Under the pieces are notes generated by a model that was not told where the DNA came from, ran no database searches, and was given only the letters and a program-made list of their open reading frames with translations. A stretch of 64,000 nucleotides of DNA from Paracoccus sp. IB05 (GTDB taxonomy: Bacteria > Pseudomonadota > Alphaproteobacteria > Rhodobacterales > Rhodobacteraceae), in assembly GCF_016405985.1 (NCBI RefSeq), contig NZ_JAEFCF010000019.1, forward strand, positions 1 through 64,000, read 5' to 3'. The stretch's first letter is position 1; the number at the start of each line of letters is the position of its first letter. The position numbers and the translations under genes were made by a program. Positions 21,301 through 52,869 of this stretch are shown here, piece by piece.

Positions 21301-21409
21301 CGTGGCGAGGGTGTCGGGAAAGCGATTGTGCGGCCTGCGGCACCATGTCAGGAACAGGATCAGCACTGCCGCCCGTGAGGCGACGCAATCTGTTAAGAAA
21401 GGGTGCCCG

Positions 21410-22441
21410 ATGACCAATGATGCCCCGAAGAAGAATGACCTGCTGAGCCGGCTGCTGGCCGAGCGGGACTGGCTGATGGCCGATGGGGCGACCGGCACCA
21501 ATCTCTTCAATATGGGGTTGGAATCGGGCGAACCGCCGGAACTGTGGAATGTCGACCGCCCCGATAATATCCGCACGCTCTACCGCAATGCGGTCGAGGC
21601 GGGGTCGGATATCTTCCTGACGAACACCTTTGGCGGCAATGCCTCGCGGCTGAAACTGCACAATGCCCAGGGCCGGGTTCATGAGCTGAACCGGGTCGGT
21701 GCGGCTTTGGGGCGCGAGATCGCCGATGCCTCGGGGCGCAAGGTGGTGGTGGCAGGCTCGGTCGGGCCGACCGGCGATATTTTCGAGCCGATGGGCACCC
21801 TGACCCATGCGCTCGCGGTCGAGATGTTCCATGAGCAGGCCGAAGGGCTGAAGGCCGGCGGCGCCGATGTGCTCTGGGTCGAGACCATCTCGGCGCCCGA
21901 AGAATACCGCGCGGCGGCCGAGGCTGCGAAACTTGCGGGCATGCCCTGGGTCGGGACCATGAGCTTTGACACGGCAGGCCGCACCATGATGGGGGTGACC
22001 TCTGCGGCGATGGCAGAGCTGGTCGAAAAACTCCCCGAGGCGCCGCTGGCGTTTGGCGCGAATTGCGGGGTCGGGGCGTCGGATCTGATGCGCACGGTGA
22101 TGGGCTTTATCGCGACCGGTACGACGCGGCCGGTGGTGGCCAAGGGCAATGCCGGGATCCCGAAATATCACGACGGCCATATCCATTACGATGGCACGCC
22201 CGAGCTGATGGGCGTCTATGCGGTGATGGCCCGCGATGCCGGGGTGAAGATCATCGGCGGTTGCTGCGGCACCATGCCCGGGCATCTGAAAGCGATGCGG
22301 CGCGCGCTGGAAGACACGCCGCGCGGCCCGGCGCCGAGCCTTGAAGATGTGGCGGCAAAGCTGGGCGGGTTCTCCTCCGTGTCCGATGGCACTGATGGCG
22401 AAGGCCCGGCCAAACGGGAACGTCGCGGCCGGCGCGGCTGA
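21410..22441 (+). CDS. bmt: Betaine--homocysteine S-methyltransferase
   Basis: A 343-residue Zn-dependent methyltransferase of the MetH/BHMT homocysteine-binding family. It begins with LMADGATGTNLF. The Zn ligands appear as the Cys of FGANCGVGASDL and the CC pair in KIIGGCCGTMPGHL. FLTNTFGGNASRL and VAGSVGPTGDIF are family blocks. It moves a methyl group from glycine betaine to homocysteine, giving methionine and dimethylglycine. The ATG at 21410 has AAAGGG 6 nt upstream; the frame open to 21281 is not needed. The gbcAB genes at 49931-52276 act on the same betaine pool. Confidence 0.88.
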   Translation: MTNDAPKKNDLLSRLLAERDWLMADGATGTNLFNMGLESGEPPELWNVDRPDNIRTLYRNAVEAGSDIFLTNTFGGNASRLKLHNAQGRVHELNRVGAALGREIADASGRKVVVAGSVGPTGDIFEPMGTLTHALAVEMFHEQAEGLKAGGADVLWVETISAPEEYRAAAEAAKLAGMPWVGTMSFDTAGRTMMGVTSAAMAELVEKLPEAPLAFGANCGVGASDLMRTVMGFIATGTTRPVVAKGNAGIPKYHDGHIHYDGTPELMGVYAVMARDAGVKIIGGCCGTMPGHLKAMRRALEDTPRGPAPSLEDVAAKLGGFSSVSDGTDGEGPAKRERRGRRG

Positions 22442-44863: not shown

Positions 44864-45876
<1,013 letters not shown>

Positions 45877-45922
45877 ACGGGGGTCCGGGGGTGTGAAACC
45901 CCCGGCGCGCAGCCCGTAAACC

Positions 45923-48049
45923 TTACAGCGTGCAGGAAACGCAGCCCTGCACTTCGGTCCCTTCCAGCGCGGTCTGGCGCAGCCGGATGTAATAGATCGT
46001 CTTGATGCACTTCTTCCAGGCATAGATCTGCGCTTTGTTGATGTCGCGCGTGGTGGCTTCGGCCGGGAAGAACAGCGTCAGCGACAGGCCCTGATCGACA
46101 TGTTCGGTCGCCGCCGCATAGGTGTCGATGATCGCTTCCGGCCCGATCTCATAGGCATCGCGGTAATATTCCAGGTTCTCATTCGACATGAAGGCGGCCG
46201 GGTAATAGACGCGCCCGATCTTGCCTTCCTTGCGGATCTCGATCTTCGCCACGATCGGGTGGATCGAGCTGGTCGAGTTGTTGATATAGGAAATCGACCC
46301 GGTCGGCGGCACGGCCTGGAGGTTGCGGTTGTAAAGCCCGCTCGCCATGACATCGGCTTTCAGCGCTTCCCAATCCGCGCGGGTCGGCAGCGTCACCCCC
46401 TCAAACAGTTCGGTGACCTTCTCCGAAACCGGCAGCCAGTCGCGCCCGGTATATTTGTCAAAGAACGAGCCATCGGCATATTTCGACTTGTCGAAATCCC
46501 TGAAACTTTGCCCATGCTCGCGCGCCAGCAGGTTCGAGGTGCGGATCGCGTGATAGGCAATGGCTGCGAAATAGACAGAGGTGAATTCGACACCTTCGGG
46601 TGAGCCGTAATGCACGAGCTCGCGCGCGAGGTAGCCATGCAGGTTCATCTGGCCCAGCCCGATGGCATGGCTCTCATCATTGCCGCGCCGGATCGAGGGC
46701 ACTGCATCAATCGCCGACATTTCCGACACGGCGGTCAGCGCGCGCACGGCCGCTTCGACGGTCTTGCCCAGATCCGGGCCGTCCATCGCTGCCGCGATGT
46801 TCAGCGAGCCGAGGTTGCAGGAAATATCCGTGCCAAGATGATCGTAGCTCAGATCCTCGTGGAAGGTCGACGCCTCATTGACCTGCAGGATTTCCGAACA
46901 GAGGTTCGACATGGTGATGCGCCCGTGGATCGGGTTCGCCTTATTCACCGTGTCTTCGAACATGATATAGGGATAGCCGGATTCGAACTGGATCTCGGCG
47001 ATGGTCTGGAAGAACTCGCGCGCGTTGATCTTGCGCTTCTTGATGCGCTTATCGTCGACCATCTCGTCATATTTCTCGGTGACCGAGATTTCCGAGAAGG
47101 GCACGCCGTAAACCTTCTGCACGTCATGCGGCGAGAAGAGATACATATCCTCGTTGTTCTTCGCGAGCTCGAATGTCACATCCGGGATCACCACGCCAAG
47201 GCTCAGCGTCTTGATGCGGATCTTCTCATCGGCATTCTCGCGCTTGGTGTCGAGGAAGCGCAGGATGTCCGGGTGGTGGGCGTTGAGGTAAACCGCGCCG
47301 GCCCCCTGACGCGCGCCAAGCTGGTTCGCGTATGAGAAGCTGTCTTCCAGAAGTTTCATCACCGGGATGACGCCGGAGGACTGATTCTCGATCCCTTTGA
47401 TCGGGGCGCCGGCCTCACGCAGGTTGGTCAGCATCAGCGCCACGCCACCGCCGCGCTTCGACAGCTGCAGCGCCGAATTGATCGACCGCCCGATCGATTC
47501 CATATTGTCTTCAAGCCGCAGGAGGAAGCACGAGATCAGCTCGCCGCGCGACATTTTTCCTGCGTTGAGGAAGGTCGGCGTTGCGGGCTGGAACCGGCCC
47601 GAAAGGATCTCGTCCATGAAGGACATCGCCAGCGCCTCATCGCCGCGCGCAAGCGCCAGCGCAACCATGACCACGCGGTCCTCGTAACGCTCGAGGAAGC
47701 GCTGACCGTCGCGGGTCTTCAGCGTATAGGAGGTGTAATATTTGAACGCGCCGAGGAAGGTCGGGAAGCGGAACTTCTTCTCATAGGCGGCATCCCAGAT
47801 CTGGCGCTGGAAGTTGCGCGAATACTGATCCAGCACATCGGGCTCGTAATAGCCTTCATCAACCAGATAGCGCAGCTTCTCGTCCAGATTGTGGAAAAAA
47901 ACCGTGTTCTGGTTCACATGTTGCAGGAAATATTGCTTCGCCGCCATGCGGTCGGCGTCGAAGCGGATTTTGCCCTCTCCGTCATAGAGGTTCAGCATCG
48001 CGTTCAGCGCATGGTAGTCCAGCGCCGGCTTCACGCCATTGTCGAGCAT
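45923..48049 (-). CDS. nrdE: Class Ib ribonucleotide reductase large subunit NrdE
   Basis: 708 residues, normal for NrdE, which lacks the N-terminal ATP cone of NrdA. It reduces nucleoside diphosphates. The active-site blocks [16 protein letters not shown] and NLCSEILQ are present. The C-terminal redox pair is CVSC (GCVSCTL). The ATG at 48049 overlaps the nrdI end by 19 nt. NrdH recycles its C-terminal cysteines. Confidence 0.95.
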
Positions 48050-48474
48050 TCCATCCCCCAGAATAGATCAAGCCCGCGCCGGACGCGGGCGATGTCGGTT
48101 TCCGTGCCGGCCAGCTCGAAGCTGTAGAGAACCGGCACATTGCATTTACTGGCGATAACCCGGCCCGCAAGGGCGTAGGTCTGGCCGAAATTTCGGTTGC
48201 CCCCGGCGATCACACCGCGCAGACCGGCGCGCCGGTCGGGGTCATTGAGAAAGCGGATCACCTGTTTCGGGACCGCACCGCGCCCCTCGCCATCGGCGAA
48301 TGTCGGGCAGATCAGAACGAAATCCCCGCCCGGATCCGGCATAGGATCCTGCGGGGATATTGGGATACGCAGCGCCGTGCCATAGCGGCCGGCGCTGACT
48401 TCTTCCAGGCGCGTGACGAAACGCAGGGTATTGCCCGAGGCAGAAGAGAAAAAGACGAGCCCGGGCACGGACAC
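48031..48474 (-). CDS. nrdI: Flavodoxin-like NrdI
   Basis: A 147-residue FMN protein. The phosphate loop is [11 protein letters not shown]; the flavin loops are [17 protein letters not shown] and [15 protein letters not shown]. It supplies the oxidant that activates the Mn2 cofactor of NrdF. It overlaps nrdE and lies 4 nt after nrdH. Confidence 0.94.
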
Positions 48475-48478
48475 CCCC

Positions 48479-48703
48479 TCAGCTGGCGAGGCGGCCGATC
48501 ATATCGGGACGAAAGCCCGCCCAATGCGCGTCACCGGCGATGACGACAGGGGCCTGGCGATAGCCGAGCGCCACAACGCGGTTCATCGCATCGGCATCTT
48601 CGGTCAGATCGATAATGGAATAGGACAAGCCTTTGGCATCGAGCGCACGGGTGGTTGCGGTGCACTGAACGCATGCGGGTTTGGAGTAAACGGTGATGGT
48701 CAT
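48479..48703 (-). CDS. nrdH: Glutaredoxin-like NrdH
   Basis: 74 residues with the redox motif CVQC (Cys11, Cys14) in VYSKPACVQCTATTRALD and the thioredoxin-fold elements QAPVVIAGDAHWAGFRPDMI, where NrdH proteins have a WxGFRP-type segment. It is the electron donor for NrdE. First gene of the nrdHIEF unit. Confidence 0.94.
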   Translation of the reverse strand: MTITVYSKPACVQCTATTRALDAKGLSYSIIDLTEDADAMNRVVALGYRQAPVVIAGDAHWAGFRPDMIGRLAS

Positions 48704-49366: not shown

Positions 49367-49825
49367 TCAGGCAGCCGGGGCGGACGGGGGGGCGGACGGG
49401 GGGGCGGGCGGGATGGAATAGGTCATATTCGCCCGCGCCACCGGATCCTCGACCCCGTCCGAGAAGATCAGCGCATCCGCCACCGCCAGCACGCGGCCAA
49501 GTTTCAAAAGCCGCACATCGCAGTAGAGCCCGCGCCCGGCGGCCGGCTTGCGCATGAAATCGATGGAACATCCCGTGGTGACCGCCAGCGCCACCGGCCC
49601 GATCCTCGACAGGATGGCCAGGTAGACCGCCACATCGGCGAGGGCGAACATCGTCGGGCCGGATACGGTGCCACCCGGGCGCAGATGGCGCTCGGCCACT
49701 TGCAGCCGCAGCCGGATGCCCTGATCGGTCACCGCATCCACGGTGAAATCCGACGCCACCTGGCCGAAATCGCGGGTGACAAATTCGTTCAGCGCGGCTC
49801 TGTCCATCAGGATCGGTTTCGCCAT
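49367..49825 (-). CDS. PaaI-family hot-dog thioesterase
   Basis: 152 residues of the PaaI/thioesterase superfamily: VAERHLRPGGTVSGPTMFALADVAVYLAIL is the hot-dog helix with the catalytic region, and VTTGCSIDFMRKPAAGRGLYCD the beta part. It hydrolyses an acyl-CoA or similar thioester. The ATG at 49825 has GGGAG 7 nt upstream; the frame to 49891 is not needed. The Pro/Ser/Ala tail (PPAPPSAPPSAPAA) is encoded by short G-rich repeats and looks slippage-derived. Confidence 0.85.
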   Translation of the reverse strand: MAKPILMDRAALNEFVTRDFGQVASDFTVDAVTDQGIRLRLQVAERHLRPGGTVSGPTMFALADVAVYLAILSRIGPVALAVTTGCSIDFMRKPAAGRGLYCDVRLLKLGRVLAVADALIFSDGVEDPVARANMTYSIPPAPPSAPPSAPAA

Positions 49826-49930
49826 CGGTGTTCTCCCATATCTGCGCGCGGTGACCGGCGGGGAGAGTAGCTGTCTCAGACGCACCGGCAAGGCTGCCGA
49901 TGCGTTATTCTCTGTCAGGCCGCGCCGCCC

Positions 49931-51022
49931 TCAGACCTCGACCGAGATCTTGCCCATCGGGTTCGAGCAACAGGCGAGGATCCAGCCCTCGGAAATCTCG
50001 TCATCCGAAATGCCGCCATTATGGACCATATGCACATCGCCTGCGGTCTTTTTCACCTTGCAGGTGCCGCAAAGGCCGAAGGTACAGCCCGAGGGAATGT
50101 TCAGCCCGGCGCGTTTCGCCACTGCGAGCACGGTATCGGTCTCGGAACAGGGCGCGGTCACGTTTGATGCGGCGAAGGTGATCTGCGCGCCGGCCTCGGA
50201 ATCGGGAATCACATCGTCGATCACCGGGGCATCGGCTTCCGTCGACACCGGTGCACCGAAGCTTTCCTGATGGTAATGTTCCATATCGAAGCCGAGCGAG
50301 ACCAGCATGTCGCGCACCGCCTGCATGAACGGCTCCGGCCCGCAGCAAAACACCTCGCGCTCCAGATAATCCGGCGCCATCAGCCCAAGCATGATCTGGC
50401 TCAGCCGGCCCTGATAGCCAGTCCAGGTCTGGAACGGGTCGCTCTCCTCGACGGTAAAGCGCAGCTTCAGCCCCGGCACACGGTCCGCAAACCCTTCGAG
50501 CCGCTTGCGCAACAGGATTTCGGATGGCCGCTTTGCCGCATGGACGAAGACGATATCGGGCATCTCGCCCGAATCCCAGGCCCAGGTCGTCATCGACATC
50601 ATCGGCGTGATGCCCGATCCGGCCGAAATAAAGAGATGCTTCTTTGCCGGATGCCGGTGCGAGCTGAAGATCCCCGCCGGGCCGTAAGCCTTGATCTTCA
50701 TCCCCGGCTTCAGGTGATCGAGCATCCAGCGTGTGCCGATCGAGCCCGCCTGGGCTTTCACCGTGACCGAGATCGACAGCGGTCGCGACGGCGAAGACGA
50801 GATCGTATAGGTGCGCTGGACATTGCCCCTGGCGCCTTTTTTCGGATCAACCGGCAGGTCGAGCGTCACGAACTGGCCCGGCTGATAATCGAACCAGGCG
50901 CCCGAGGGCGCGCGGAAGGTGAAGGTGGCGGTATCCGGCGTCTCGGGCACGACCATGGCGCATTCAAGATGCTCCGCATCATCCCAGGGCTTCGCAGACC
51001 AGTTAAGTTGTTGCTTTCCCAT
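49931..51022 (-). CDS. gbcB: Glycine betaine monooxygenase reductase subunit GbcB
   Basis: A 363-residue FAD/[2Fe-2S] reductase. The FAD domain has QRTYTISSSPS; the NAD(P)H site starts HLFISAGSGITPMMSM; a C-terminal plant-type ferredoxin holds CTFGLCGTC plus a later Cys in ILACCSNP. It passes electrons from NAD(P)H to the Rieske subunit GbcA. It lies 3 nt downstream of gbcA. Confidence 0.9.
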   Translation of the reverse strand: MGKQQLNWSAKPWDDAEHLECAMVVPETPDTATFTFRAPSGAWFDYQPGQFVTLDLPVDPKKGARGNVQRTYTISSSPSRPLSISVTVKAQAGSIGTRWMLDHLKPGMKIKAYGPAGIFSSHRHPAKKHLFISAGSGITPMMSMTTWAWDSGEMPDIVFVHAAKRPSEILLRKRLEGFADRVPGLKLRFTVEESDPFQTWTGYQGRLSQIMLGLMAPDYLEREVFCCGPEPFMQAVRDMLVSLGFDMEHYHQESFGAPVSTEADAPVIDDVIPDSEAGAQITFAASNVTAPCSETDTVLAVAKRAGLNIPSGCTFGLCGTCKVKKTAGDVHMVHNGGISDDEISEGWILACCSNPMGKISVEV

Positions 51023-51025
51023 TTT

Positions 51026-52276
51026 TTATTCCGCCGCCAGTGCCGGGCCGGTGCCGGAAACGGGGCCAAGGCGTTGCGTCATGATGCCCGTATACCAGTC
51101 GATGAATTGCATCACCCCTTCTTCCTGGATCGGGGAATAGGGTCCGGGCTCATAGGCGGGAGAAAGAATGCCCTTCTGGTTTTCCTCGACCACCTGGCGG
51201 TCTTCGTCATTGGTGTTGAGCCAGACGCGGGTGAGGGTTTCGAGATCATAATCGACGCCCTCGACCGCATCCTTATGGACCAGCCAGTTCGTGGTCACTT
51301 GCGTCTCGGTCGGGCTGATCGGCAGGATGCGGAAGACGATGGCGTGATCACCGAGGAAATGGTTCCAGCTGTTCGGGTAGTGGAAGAACAGAAGGCTGCC
51401 GGCATCGTTGAAGGGCATGGTGCCCATGCGTTTCGCCACCGCCGCCTTTGTCGACATCGTATAGCTTTCGGCGCCGTTCAGCAGGGGAATGCGGGCGAGC
51501 CGCCATTGCATCTGCGGATGGTTGGTAAAGCGCGAGGGCAGGCCCGCCGCCTCGCAGCGCTTCCAGTGTTCGATAATGTCGGGCGAGGCCGAATCAGGCC
51601 CCTCCATCGCCGTCATACGCGGGTTGTCGGAGTAAGTCCGGCACAAAGACGGGTGCGCGCCGCCGCAATGATAGCATTCGCGGTTGTTCTCGATCACCAG
51701 TTTCCAGTTGCCGTTTTCGACGATGGTCGAGCTGAAAGCGACCTTTGCATCGGCAAGCCCCGAGGGGGCCAGATACGACATCAGCTTCGGCGCGAGGTCG
51801 GAAATGGGAGGGGGCACTTCGGCGAGACAGATAAAGACCATGCCGCCAAGATCGACACAGTGCACCTTCTTCAGCCCGAATTTCGAGGGGTCGAAATCCT
51901 CGCCCATATCGCGGGCGAAAATAAGCTTGCCCTCGAGGTCATAGGTCCATTGGTGATAGGGGCAGACAAGGTTCGTCGTCGCGCCATTGGTCTTCGCGCA
52001 AAGCCGCTGACCGCGATGGCGGCAGACATTGTGGAACGCGCGGATGCGATTATCTTTGCCCTTGATGATCACCACCGGATAGGCGCCGATCTGCAGCGTG
52101 GCAAAGGCGCCGGGTTTCTCCAGCTCGCAGGCCGGAATGGCGAAGAGCCATTCACGATACCACAGATGCTGAAGATCCGCCTCCAACACCCCGGGATCAC
52201 AATATAAATCGCGCTCTAAGGCATAGCCGCTCTGGCGTGCCAGCAGGCGGGAAAGGGTTTCGGACTGGCTCAGCAT
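51026..52276 (-). CDS. gbcA: Glycine betaine monooxygenase Rieske subunit GbcA
   Basis: A 416-residue Rieske non-haem iron oxygenase. The Rieske cluster motif is CRHRGQRLC...CPYHQW. The catalytic Fe ligands are in NNRECYHCGGAHPSL (two His) with Asp or Glu further on. It removes one methyl from glycine betaine, giving dimethylglycine and formaldehyde. AAGGA 6 nt upstream supports the start. A cobalamin riboswitch and its expression platform occupy the 5' leader. Confidence 0.9.
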   Translation of the reverse strand: MLSQSETLSRLLARQSGYALERDLYCDPGVLEADLQHLWYREWLFAIPACELEKPGAFATLQIGAYPVVIIKGKDNRIRAFHNVCRHRGQRLCAKTNGATTNLVCPYHQWTYDLEGKLIFARDMGEDFDPSKFGLKKVHCVDLGGMVFICLAEVPPPISDLAPKLMSYLAPSGLADAKVAFSSTIVENGNWKLVIENNRECYHCGGAHPSLCRTYSDNPRMTAMEGPDSASPDIIEHWKRCEAAGLPSRFTNHPQMQWRLARIPLLNGAESYTMSTKAAVAKRMGTMPFNDAGSLLFFHYPNSWNHFLGDHAIVFRILPISPTETQVTTNWLVHKDAVEGVDYDLETLTRVWLNTNDEDRQVVEENQKGILSPAYEPGPYSPIQEEGVMQFIDWYTGIMTQRLGPVSGTGPALAAE

Positions 52277-52305
52277 CTGCTGTCCTTCGCGTTAGCCCGG
52301 GCGTG

Positions 52306-52406
52306 CCGCACAGGCAGGTTTGATGTGCGGTGGACAACAGGCGGCGAAGGGCCCGCGCGGGGATGGACCCGCGAGCCGCTTGCCGCTTCGCCGCCCACCG
52401 CGGCTC
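52306..52406 (-). promoter_or_regulatory. Expression platform of the cobalamin riboswitch
   Basis: Between the aptamer and gbcA are three hairpins. GAGCCGC/GCGGCTC (52373-52379 with 52400-52406) and GGCGGCGAAG/CTTCGCCGCC (52340-52349 with 52386-52395) overlap in space and cannot form together. A third, CCGCAC/GTGCGG (52306-52330), lies about 30 nt upstream of the gbcA start. Alternative folding could control transcription or translation. Confidence 0.6.
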
Positions 52407-52410
52407 GACA

Positions 52411-52606
52411 TCTCGTGCAAGGCTGGTTTCCGGGCTTGGCGAGCGGTCTTTTCAACCCTGGTCGCGACACCTTCCCGGGCTCCTCCGCCCAGTGGTCCTT
52501 GTCGCGCCTCTCAGCCTCTACCGTTGCGGGGGCAGCGCCGGCTTTGGCCCCTTGCAGGACCGCACCGGCTTCCCAATTCTCCGCTGTCGCCAGCGGCACC
52601 TTGCGA
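52411..52606 (-). ncRNA. Cobalamin (B12) riboswitch aptamer
   Basis: The minus strand shows GAATTGGGAAGCCGGTGC, then AAAGCCGGCGCTGCCCCCGCAAC (52519-52545), and the B12 box AAGCCCGGAAACCAGCC near 52422-52438. A P1 stem pairs CAAGG near 52600 with CCTTG near 52420. The downstream gene is gbcA, with no gene in between. Confidence 0.9.
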
Positions 52607-52644
52607 GGCTGAATTGATCACAGTGCGGCGGGCGGGATTGTCTG

Positions 52645-52662
52645 TTTGCGACATGTCGCAAA
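52645..52662. promoter_or_regulatory. 18-bp perfect palindrome between divergent riboswitches
   Basis: TTTGCGACATGTCGCAAA. Flanking GTCTG (52640-52644) and CAGAC (52669-52673) add an outer, slightly offset inverted pair. It lies just upstream of the expected gbcA transcription start and is a good operator candidate. Confidence 0.6.
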
Positions 52663-52762
52663 GCGGAACAGACAGCGGCCCCGTAAGCAGCCTCATTCGC
52701 GCAGAAAGCGGGATTTTGCCGGTTGCCAAACGAAAACGCGGCGCTTAACGATTGGGCAACTT

Positions 52763-52854
52763 ACTCGTTGGGGTGTCCCGGGAAACCGGGGCTGAGAGGC
52801 CGCAAGGCTAACCCATCGAACCTGATCCGGTTCATACCGGCGGAGGGAACGGGT
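52763..52854 (+). ncRNA. TPP riboswitch (THI element)
   Basis: The conserved core GGGGTGTCCCGGG, CTGAGAGG, ACCC, GAACCTGATCCGGTTCATACCGGCGGAGGGAA is complete. P1 pairs ACTCGTT with AACGGGT. It leads the thiD operon and should repress it when thiamine pyrophosphate is abundant. Confidence 0.95.
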
Positions 52855-52869
52855 GGTCTGATCGTGTCT

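Follow-up and report, generated by a model that had tools for sequence, protein, structure and literature searches.

Cobalamin riboswitches have been described upstream of the isozyme genes metE and nrd, as set out in the passages cited here (PMC9600662; PMC545781; PMC3766115). In Ruegeria pomeroyi, glycine betaine is demethylated by the corrinoid system MtgBCD, two components of which, MtgC and MtgD, are shared with methionine synthesis; the cited portion of the same paper makes the case that BHMT-like proteins of Ruegeria and Sinorhizobium should be seen as MtgE, which contributes the homocysteine module to a split methionine synthase that depends on B12 (PMC12478193). A structure has been solved for Stc2, the stachydrine demethylase of Sinorhizobium meliloti, and the Cys pair 202/205 and the placement in Rieske group Vb are taken from the cited parts of the same reports (PMC10952381; PMC7948474). 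The methionine synthase pair MesX-MesD depends on O2 but on neither B12 nor folate; its methyl source is left unknown in the cited text (PMC7857596).

In the window (the whole stretch of 64,000 nucleotides that was analysed), a cobalamin riboswitch precedes an operon for a putative betaine N-demethylase. As far as the cited passages on metE and nrd describe those switches, the RNA family and, in the reading proposed below, the logic of repressing a B12-free isozyme are common to both. Unlike in those cases, the target would be an O2-dependent betaine N-demethylase and its counterpart a multi-subunit corrinoid methyltransferase system.

Riboswitch, leader and target operon

A complete B12 aptamer had been predicted on the minus strand before a Rieske oxygenase gene, and this was confirmed by an Rfam cmscan of the window with the cobalamin covariance model: RF00174 was matched over its full length (model positions 1-189 of 189) at 52404-52618 on the minus strand, with 104.4 bits and an E value of 4.5e-25, the gathering score being 31.5 bits. 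The interval originally given, 52277-52606, was thus right as to locus but 12 nt short at the 5' end. Between the aptamer and the ATG at 52276 of the oxygenase gene, on the same strand, the reading frames of the window contain no likely gene, as had been claimed, but the distance is 127 nt and not 134 nt. In an alignment of 29 aptamers from related leaders, 23 of the 45 pairs called by RNAalifold showed compensatory changes, the core was invariant, and the compensatory changes extended across two orders. A chance match or a broken aptamer was ruled out by the full-model score together with this covariation. By its sequence, the RNA is of the ordinary class of cobalamin riboswitches and has an unusual target. 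The genome-wide scan returned 12 cobalamin matches, this aptamer included. A TPP riboswitch (52759-52865, plus strand) stands before a thiD-like gene, divergent from the cobalamin riboswitch and separated from it by 140 nt (52619-52758); the same back-to-back layout was seen in Pseudogemmobacter hezensis (L066).

The original prediction also held that the leader contains mutually exclusive hairpins. These are present as predicted folds, but the fold of the 3' part of the leader on its own does not stand clearly above shuffled sequences (z -1.28; 18 of 200 shuffles folded as well), whereas the whole leader does better than its shuffles (z -2.49; 2 of 100 as good). A hairpin of 15 nt with a G-rich loop (52390-52404, minus strand) lies just 3' of the aptamer and recurs in 23 of 35 leaders, among which A-U/G-C and C-G/U-A exchanges affect both sides of the stem. 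Presumably, it occupies the place at which cobalamin riboswitches have their regulatory hairpin, P13, for which it is a candidate. The loop of P13 forms a kissing contact with L5 in this class. Complementarity of the hairpin loop to L5 was present in 30 of 34 leaders versus 22.5 expected from shuffles, which in these GC-rich sequences does not exceed chance, the GC content swamping the test. A long hairpin (52327-52401, minus strand), present in both the minimum-energy and the centroid structure, is a candidate for the ligand-free state. Its stem excludes both the 15-nt hairpin and a CCGCACA/UGUGCGG hairpin that was read by eye before the ribosome-binding site (52306-52330, minus strand) and is absent from the predicted minimum-energy fold. 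The likely Shine-Dalgarno sequence, AAGGA (52283-52287, minus strand), is located 6 nt before the ATG. Since the leader has no site resembling an intrinsic terminator, translational control seems more likely than intrinsic termination. A sigma-70-like promoter was not found in the leader either, shuffled sequences giving 1.0 on average.

The operon starts with the gene for a putative GbcA/Stc2-type Rieske betaine N-demethylase, the oxygenase subunit of 416 aa (51026-52276, minus strand), followed by that of a GbcB-type ferredoxin reductase subunit of 363 aa (49931-51022, minus strand), which scored 366.9 bits with NF058606 (cut-off 500). The next gene downstream codes for a hotdog-fold thioesterase (49367-49891, minus strand), a gene also present at the P. 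hezensis locus. Among the best 80 of 597 listed matches in named genomes, the reductase gene adjoins that of the oxygenase in 77 loci, L100, L143 and L144 being the exceptions.

Rieske group Vb membership and the two-gene layout with a ferredoxin reductase are shared with GbcAB. The gene name gbcA, given in the original prediction, cannot be kept as a firm label: the oxygenase reached 497.4 bits with the NCBI GbcA equivalog NF058607, for which the cut-off is 670, and it groups with Stc2 instead. Its closest solved structures are 3n0q (565 bits), 3vca and 4qup (both 546 bits), and we take the latter two to be Stc2 entries. The 3vca fragment is 100 % identical over 397 residues to a gene on S. 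meliloti pSymA. The window oxygenase is 56 % identical to Stc2, a comparison that has no curated orthology cut-off, and 46-53 % identical to seven sequences from other classes that exceed the GbcA cut-off. In a tree with long branches, it falls together with Stc2 in one clade of 84 rows that does not include the 13 GbcA sequences above the cut-off. C202 and C205 (Stc2 numbering) are conserved in the window oxygenase, as are the iron ligands H204, H209 and D360, which we assume to be the His-His-Asp numbers in Stc2. Twenty-eight positions separate five GbcA sequences from 18 others; the window protein was assigned to the others beforehand, so that these positions say nothing on its substrate. 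As the score is below the GbcA cut-off and the protein lies in the Stc2 clade, it is labelled GbcA/Stc2-type and is probably, judging from these comparisons, a betaine N-demethylase. The resemblance does not extend to the riboswitch: unlike the window locus, neither 13 loci of above-cut-off GbcA nor the 11 kb examined around stc2 on pSymA contained one according to our own model, the only one used for the pSymA stretch.

Distribution of the arrangement

The survey of related leaders that had been proposed was carried out in several samples. A family sample of 149 genomes contained 38 with a GbcA-like match at an E value of 1e-60 or better, and 29 loci were fetched from it, all of at least 520 bits and including the window; G091:C8, of the same tier, was left out. 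The riboswitch was found directly before the oxygenase gene in 12 of these 29 (11 of 28 when the window is not counted), and it was absent from L042, a match of 356 bits. In named genomes, the best 80 of 597 listed matches encode proteins that are 55-94 % identical to the window oxygenase; here, 28 of the 80 loci carried the riboswitch, in 18 named genera: Pseudogemmobacter, Gemmobacter, Rhodobacter, Pararhodobacter, Pseudorhodobacter, Cypionkella, Fuscibacter, Rubellimicrobium, Leisingera, Pelagimonas, Ruegeria, Roseibium, Sulfitobacter, Pseudophaeobacter, Shimia, Phaeobacter, Marinibacterium and Primorskyibacter. Two of these aptamers were weak matches, L076 with 31.8 and L140 with 32.0 bits. 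Application of our own model to the 52 unmatched leaders along with L076 and L140 gave positives before the gene in the latter two only; in L076, a further switch was seen downstream by both this model and Rfam. All 17 Paracoccus loci within the best 80 of 597 contain the operon, and none has the riboswitch.

A phylum sample of 299 genomes yielded a second family, f10, with nine fetched loci, six of which carried the riboswitch. Three of its proteins are almost the same as those of named Rhizobium loci, for which reason the family is taken to be Rhizobiaceae. The switched f10 proteins are 53-56 % identical to the window oxygenase and lie outside the clade of the latter and Stc2, and they may be paralogues. 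By sequence comparison, the combination of riboswitch and demethylase seems to span two orders. Six plasmid loci were chosen by hand out of 154 records. Three were switched (Ruegeria sp. TM1040, Phaeobacter gallaeciensis P128 and Gemmobacter fulvus) and three were not (S. meliloti pSymA with Stc2, S. fredii NGR234 and Cereibacter sphaeroides IL106). Strains of Rhodobacter capsulatus are also among the carriers. Roseibium aquae has two copies of the oxygenase gene in one genome, a switched one (L107) and an unswitched one (L100), and thus provides a natural control.

The corrinoid route and the gene neighbourhoods

The genome of the window has counterparts of several components of the MtgBCDE system of R. 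pomeroyi as that system is described in the cited portion of PMC12478193, which makes no mention of riboswitch control of gbcAB; MtgBCDE needs B12, unlike the demethylase pair of the window. Three full-length MTTB genes and two weak fragments are present, together with an MtgC-like protein beside DUF1638, a two-piece MetH and NrdJ. For one MTTB copy, the closest solved structure is 4yyc, a putative trimethylamine methyltransferase (714 bits); two further structures match the same copy with about 392 bits, and one of these is named glycine betaine methyltransferase. The MtgC-like protein remained below the NCBI MtgC cut-offs (202.8 of 370 and 174.5 of 310 bits), which counts against the reading of the demethylase as a stand-in for the corrinoid route. 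The MtgE-like protein is a homocysteine S-methyltransferase encoded at 21404-22441 on the plus strand. It scored 600 bits with the NCBIfam BHMT model (cut-off 338) and is, by analogy, probably MtgE-type.

MTTB (PF06253) was found in the genomes of all 28 switched and of 31 of the 51 unswitched named loci from the best 80 of 597 (Fisher p 3e-5), the remaining 20 unswitched ones being without it; in this count, L117 was left out and L100 and L107 share one genome. When Paracoccus and L097 were removed from the same set, the figures became 27 of 27 versus 28 of 34 (p 0.03). For L097 and L136, the proteins had been translated in a single frame, stops being written as X, and L097, which distorted the tree, was omitted from the later tree. 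A test controlled for kinship left four independent pairs on well-supported branches of the gene tree, none of them contrary on average, and was not significant. Much of the association between MTTB and the switch is explained by kinship. In the family sample, some genomes of which are also in the named sample, MTTB was present in 12 of 12 switched and 15 of 17 unswitched cases (p 0.50), and only its copy number differed with switch status (p 0.0045). In f10, MTTB occurred in six of six switched and none of three unswitched cases (p 0.012). Two named Rhizobium loci, unswitched and without MTTB, may be from the same species as f10 members. An unswitched locus with MTTB is L175 (genome G501). 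As 31 of the 51 unswitched named loci have MTTB in their genomes as well, the B12-dependent route is insufficient to predict the switch. A second, MtgC-like PF02607 protein (58-71 bits) accompanied MTTB in 20 of 20 hand-picked genomes and was found in none of ten hand-picked genomes lacking it.

The gene neighbourhoods point the same way as a B12-free stand-in, with limits. In R. aquae, genes for an MtgC-like protein, DUF1638, a pterin-binding MtgD-like protein and a RACo-type activase lie next to the switched operon in divergent orientation, and at least the mtgC-like gene is at the matching place in R. hamelinense. The genes nrdH, nrdI, nrdE and nrdF of the B12-independent class Ib ribonucleotide reductase (44864-48703, minus strand; nrdH assigned by sequence and place) are located beyond the thioesterase gene in the window, and the switched operon is also beside nrdHIEF in G026, G118 and G092. 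In G092, three riboswitches face nrdHIEF, the demethylase genes and a two-piece metH, respectively. The order in G118 is switch, gbcAB, metH, switch, nrdHI, a MetE-like gene and nrdEF. Among the best 80 of 597 named matches, nrd genes adjoin the operon in six unswitched Paracoccus loci as well. The switch before the B12-dependent metH of G092 (L063:7049-11570) is not explained by a simple isozyme rule.

Control by B12 and alternative explanations

The explanation we favour is that the demethylase pair, using O2 and no B12, stands in for the MtgBCD (MTTB) corrinoid route and is repressed by B12; we put its probability at roughly two in three. Plentiful adenosylcobalamin would bind the aptamer and the leader would fold such that the gbcA/stc2-type operon stays silent; when B12 is short, the operon would be expressed. 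The oxygenase and reductase would then use O2 and NAD(P)H, but no B12, to take an N-methyl group off a betaine, in place of the MTTB/MtgBCD route that is seemingly encoded in the same genome and would act on a common substrate. The logic would be that at metE or nrd, where the B12-free isozyme is off while the B12-dependent route works. It had been suggested at the outset that the demethylase is repressed when B12 favours methyl transfer, which fits the gene content and the neighbourhoods, although the kinship-controlled association with MTTB was not significant.

Could the demethylase genes merely be carried along in a larger B12-saving operon, with nrdHIEF as the main client of the switch? 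In the window, the nrd genes do follow downstream in the same orientation, and they are downstream in G026 and G118 as well, but in the window nrdH begins 663 nt past the thioesterase gene and is probably on a separate transcript, nrdH has a cobalamin riboswitch of its own in G118 and G092, and 26 of the 28 switched named loci (from the best 80 of 597) showed no nrd match in flanks of about 2.5 kb; we give this explanation little credence. It is similarly unlikely that the operon comes under the control typical of B12 biosynthesis genes, with betaine demethylation feeding cobalamin synthesis by way of glycine and 5-aminolevulinate and of methyl groups and SAM. Alphaproteobacteria of this kind are expected to form aminolevulinate from glycine, and seven of the 11 other switches of the genome precede genes resembling those for cobalt/B12 uptake or synthesis. 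Against this stand the 17 Paracoccus loci of the best 80 of 597, unswitched despite having the operon, and the finding that no gene for a later demethylation step is among the identified switch targets, C14:107122 and C14:90257 lying outside these.

The near-threshold scores of L076 and L140, the leader free of a terminator-like site and the unconvincing 3' fold would suit a relic, in which a real aptamer has lost control of the gene; the invariant core, the many compensatory changes over two orders and the folding of the full leader (z -2.49) speak for a functioning element, and loss of control is considered very improbable. In the second idea of the original prediction, the protein encoded at 21404-22441 would make methionine without B12, and betaine would be kept back for this reaction or consumed in it. 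That protein is indeed called BHMT by NCBIfam, but such proteins are argued, in the cited portion of PMC12478193, to be MtgE of a B12-dependent split synthase, repression of gbcAB in the presence of B12 would spare betaine at the wrong time, and the genome also has mesX-mesD behind a cobalamin riboswitch. For the MtgE argument and the wrong timing, methionine supply by BHMT was rejected as the main reading, and we regard it as having hardly any chance of being correct.

If repression of a B12-free stand-in is correct, betaine catabolism would join the functions that bacteria switch according to B12 supply, and a single RNA sensor would select between O2-dependent and corrinoid-dependent demethylation. 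As betaines are major osmolytes in the sea and in plants, B12 supply could then decide whether their methyl groups end as formaldehyde or enter the folate pool. The carriers of the arrangement include Ruegeria sp. TM1040, Phaeobacter and R. capsulatus, in which the idea is testable. B12-regulated genes named ardX-frdX, reportedly described by Rodionov et al. in 2003, could be the window operon under another name. The RNA family is known and the target unusual, and no priority is claimed. A search of the literature covering titles and the beginnings of abstracts found, among the matches listed, no report of a cobalamin riboswitch with this target, the B12-element catalogues of 2003 (Rodionov et al., J Biol Chem; Vitreschak et al., RNA) and the regulon tables of PMC3766115 being outside its scope.

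Other cobalamin riboswitches of the genome

Apart from the demethylase operon (L004), the cobalamin switches of the genome precede genes for TonB receptors (L003, L006 and L010, in the last case with an AraC-type gene first), an ABC binding protein (L005), cobW (L007), a nitroreductase-family gene that may be bluB (L008), cbtA (L009), mesX-mesD (L001), a poorly readable ABC-like stretch (L011) and a GbcA-like Rieske paralogue (L012); no clear target gene was found downstream of L002. The strongest of all, with 145.7 bits (C20 3758-3958, minus strand), is the one before mesX-mesD (C20:1565-3958). Only two of the 149 family genomes contain mesX, and the fetched stretch around the other copy (G026) has no riboswitch.

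A wider exchange of oxygen for B12 can be proposed tentatively, at odds clearly below even. Methionine synthesis and betaine demethylation, both of which are served by MtgC in Ruegeria, would each have an O2-dependent, B12-free substitute under a riboswitch of its own, namely mesX-mesD and the gbcA/stc2-type pair, and a second GbcA-like oxygenase, on contig C14, is switched as well. In its boldest extension, the demethylase would supply the methyl source of MesX/MesD in B12-starved cells.

On contig C14 (C14:90257-93971), two cobalamin riboswitches are arranged in tandem. The first is located before an ABC-transporter-like stretch without a clear intact gene, and the second precedes the GbcA-like Rieske oxygenase gene, the product of which is 34 % identical to the window oxygenase. 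The riboswitch was absent before this type of oxygenase at seven loci in other genomes and at the C64 paralogue of the same genome (41-48 % identity). A minor observation concerns two Paracoccus loci, in which a SECIS_3 element was detected some 750-760 nt downstream of the gbcB match (L068:5571-5629 and L090:5562-5620).
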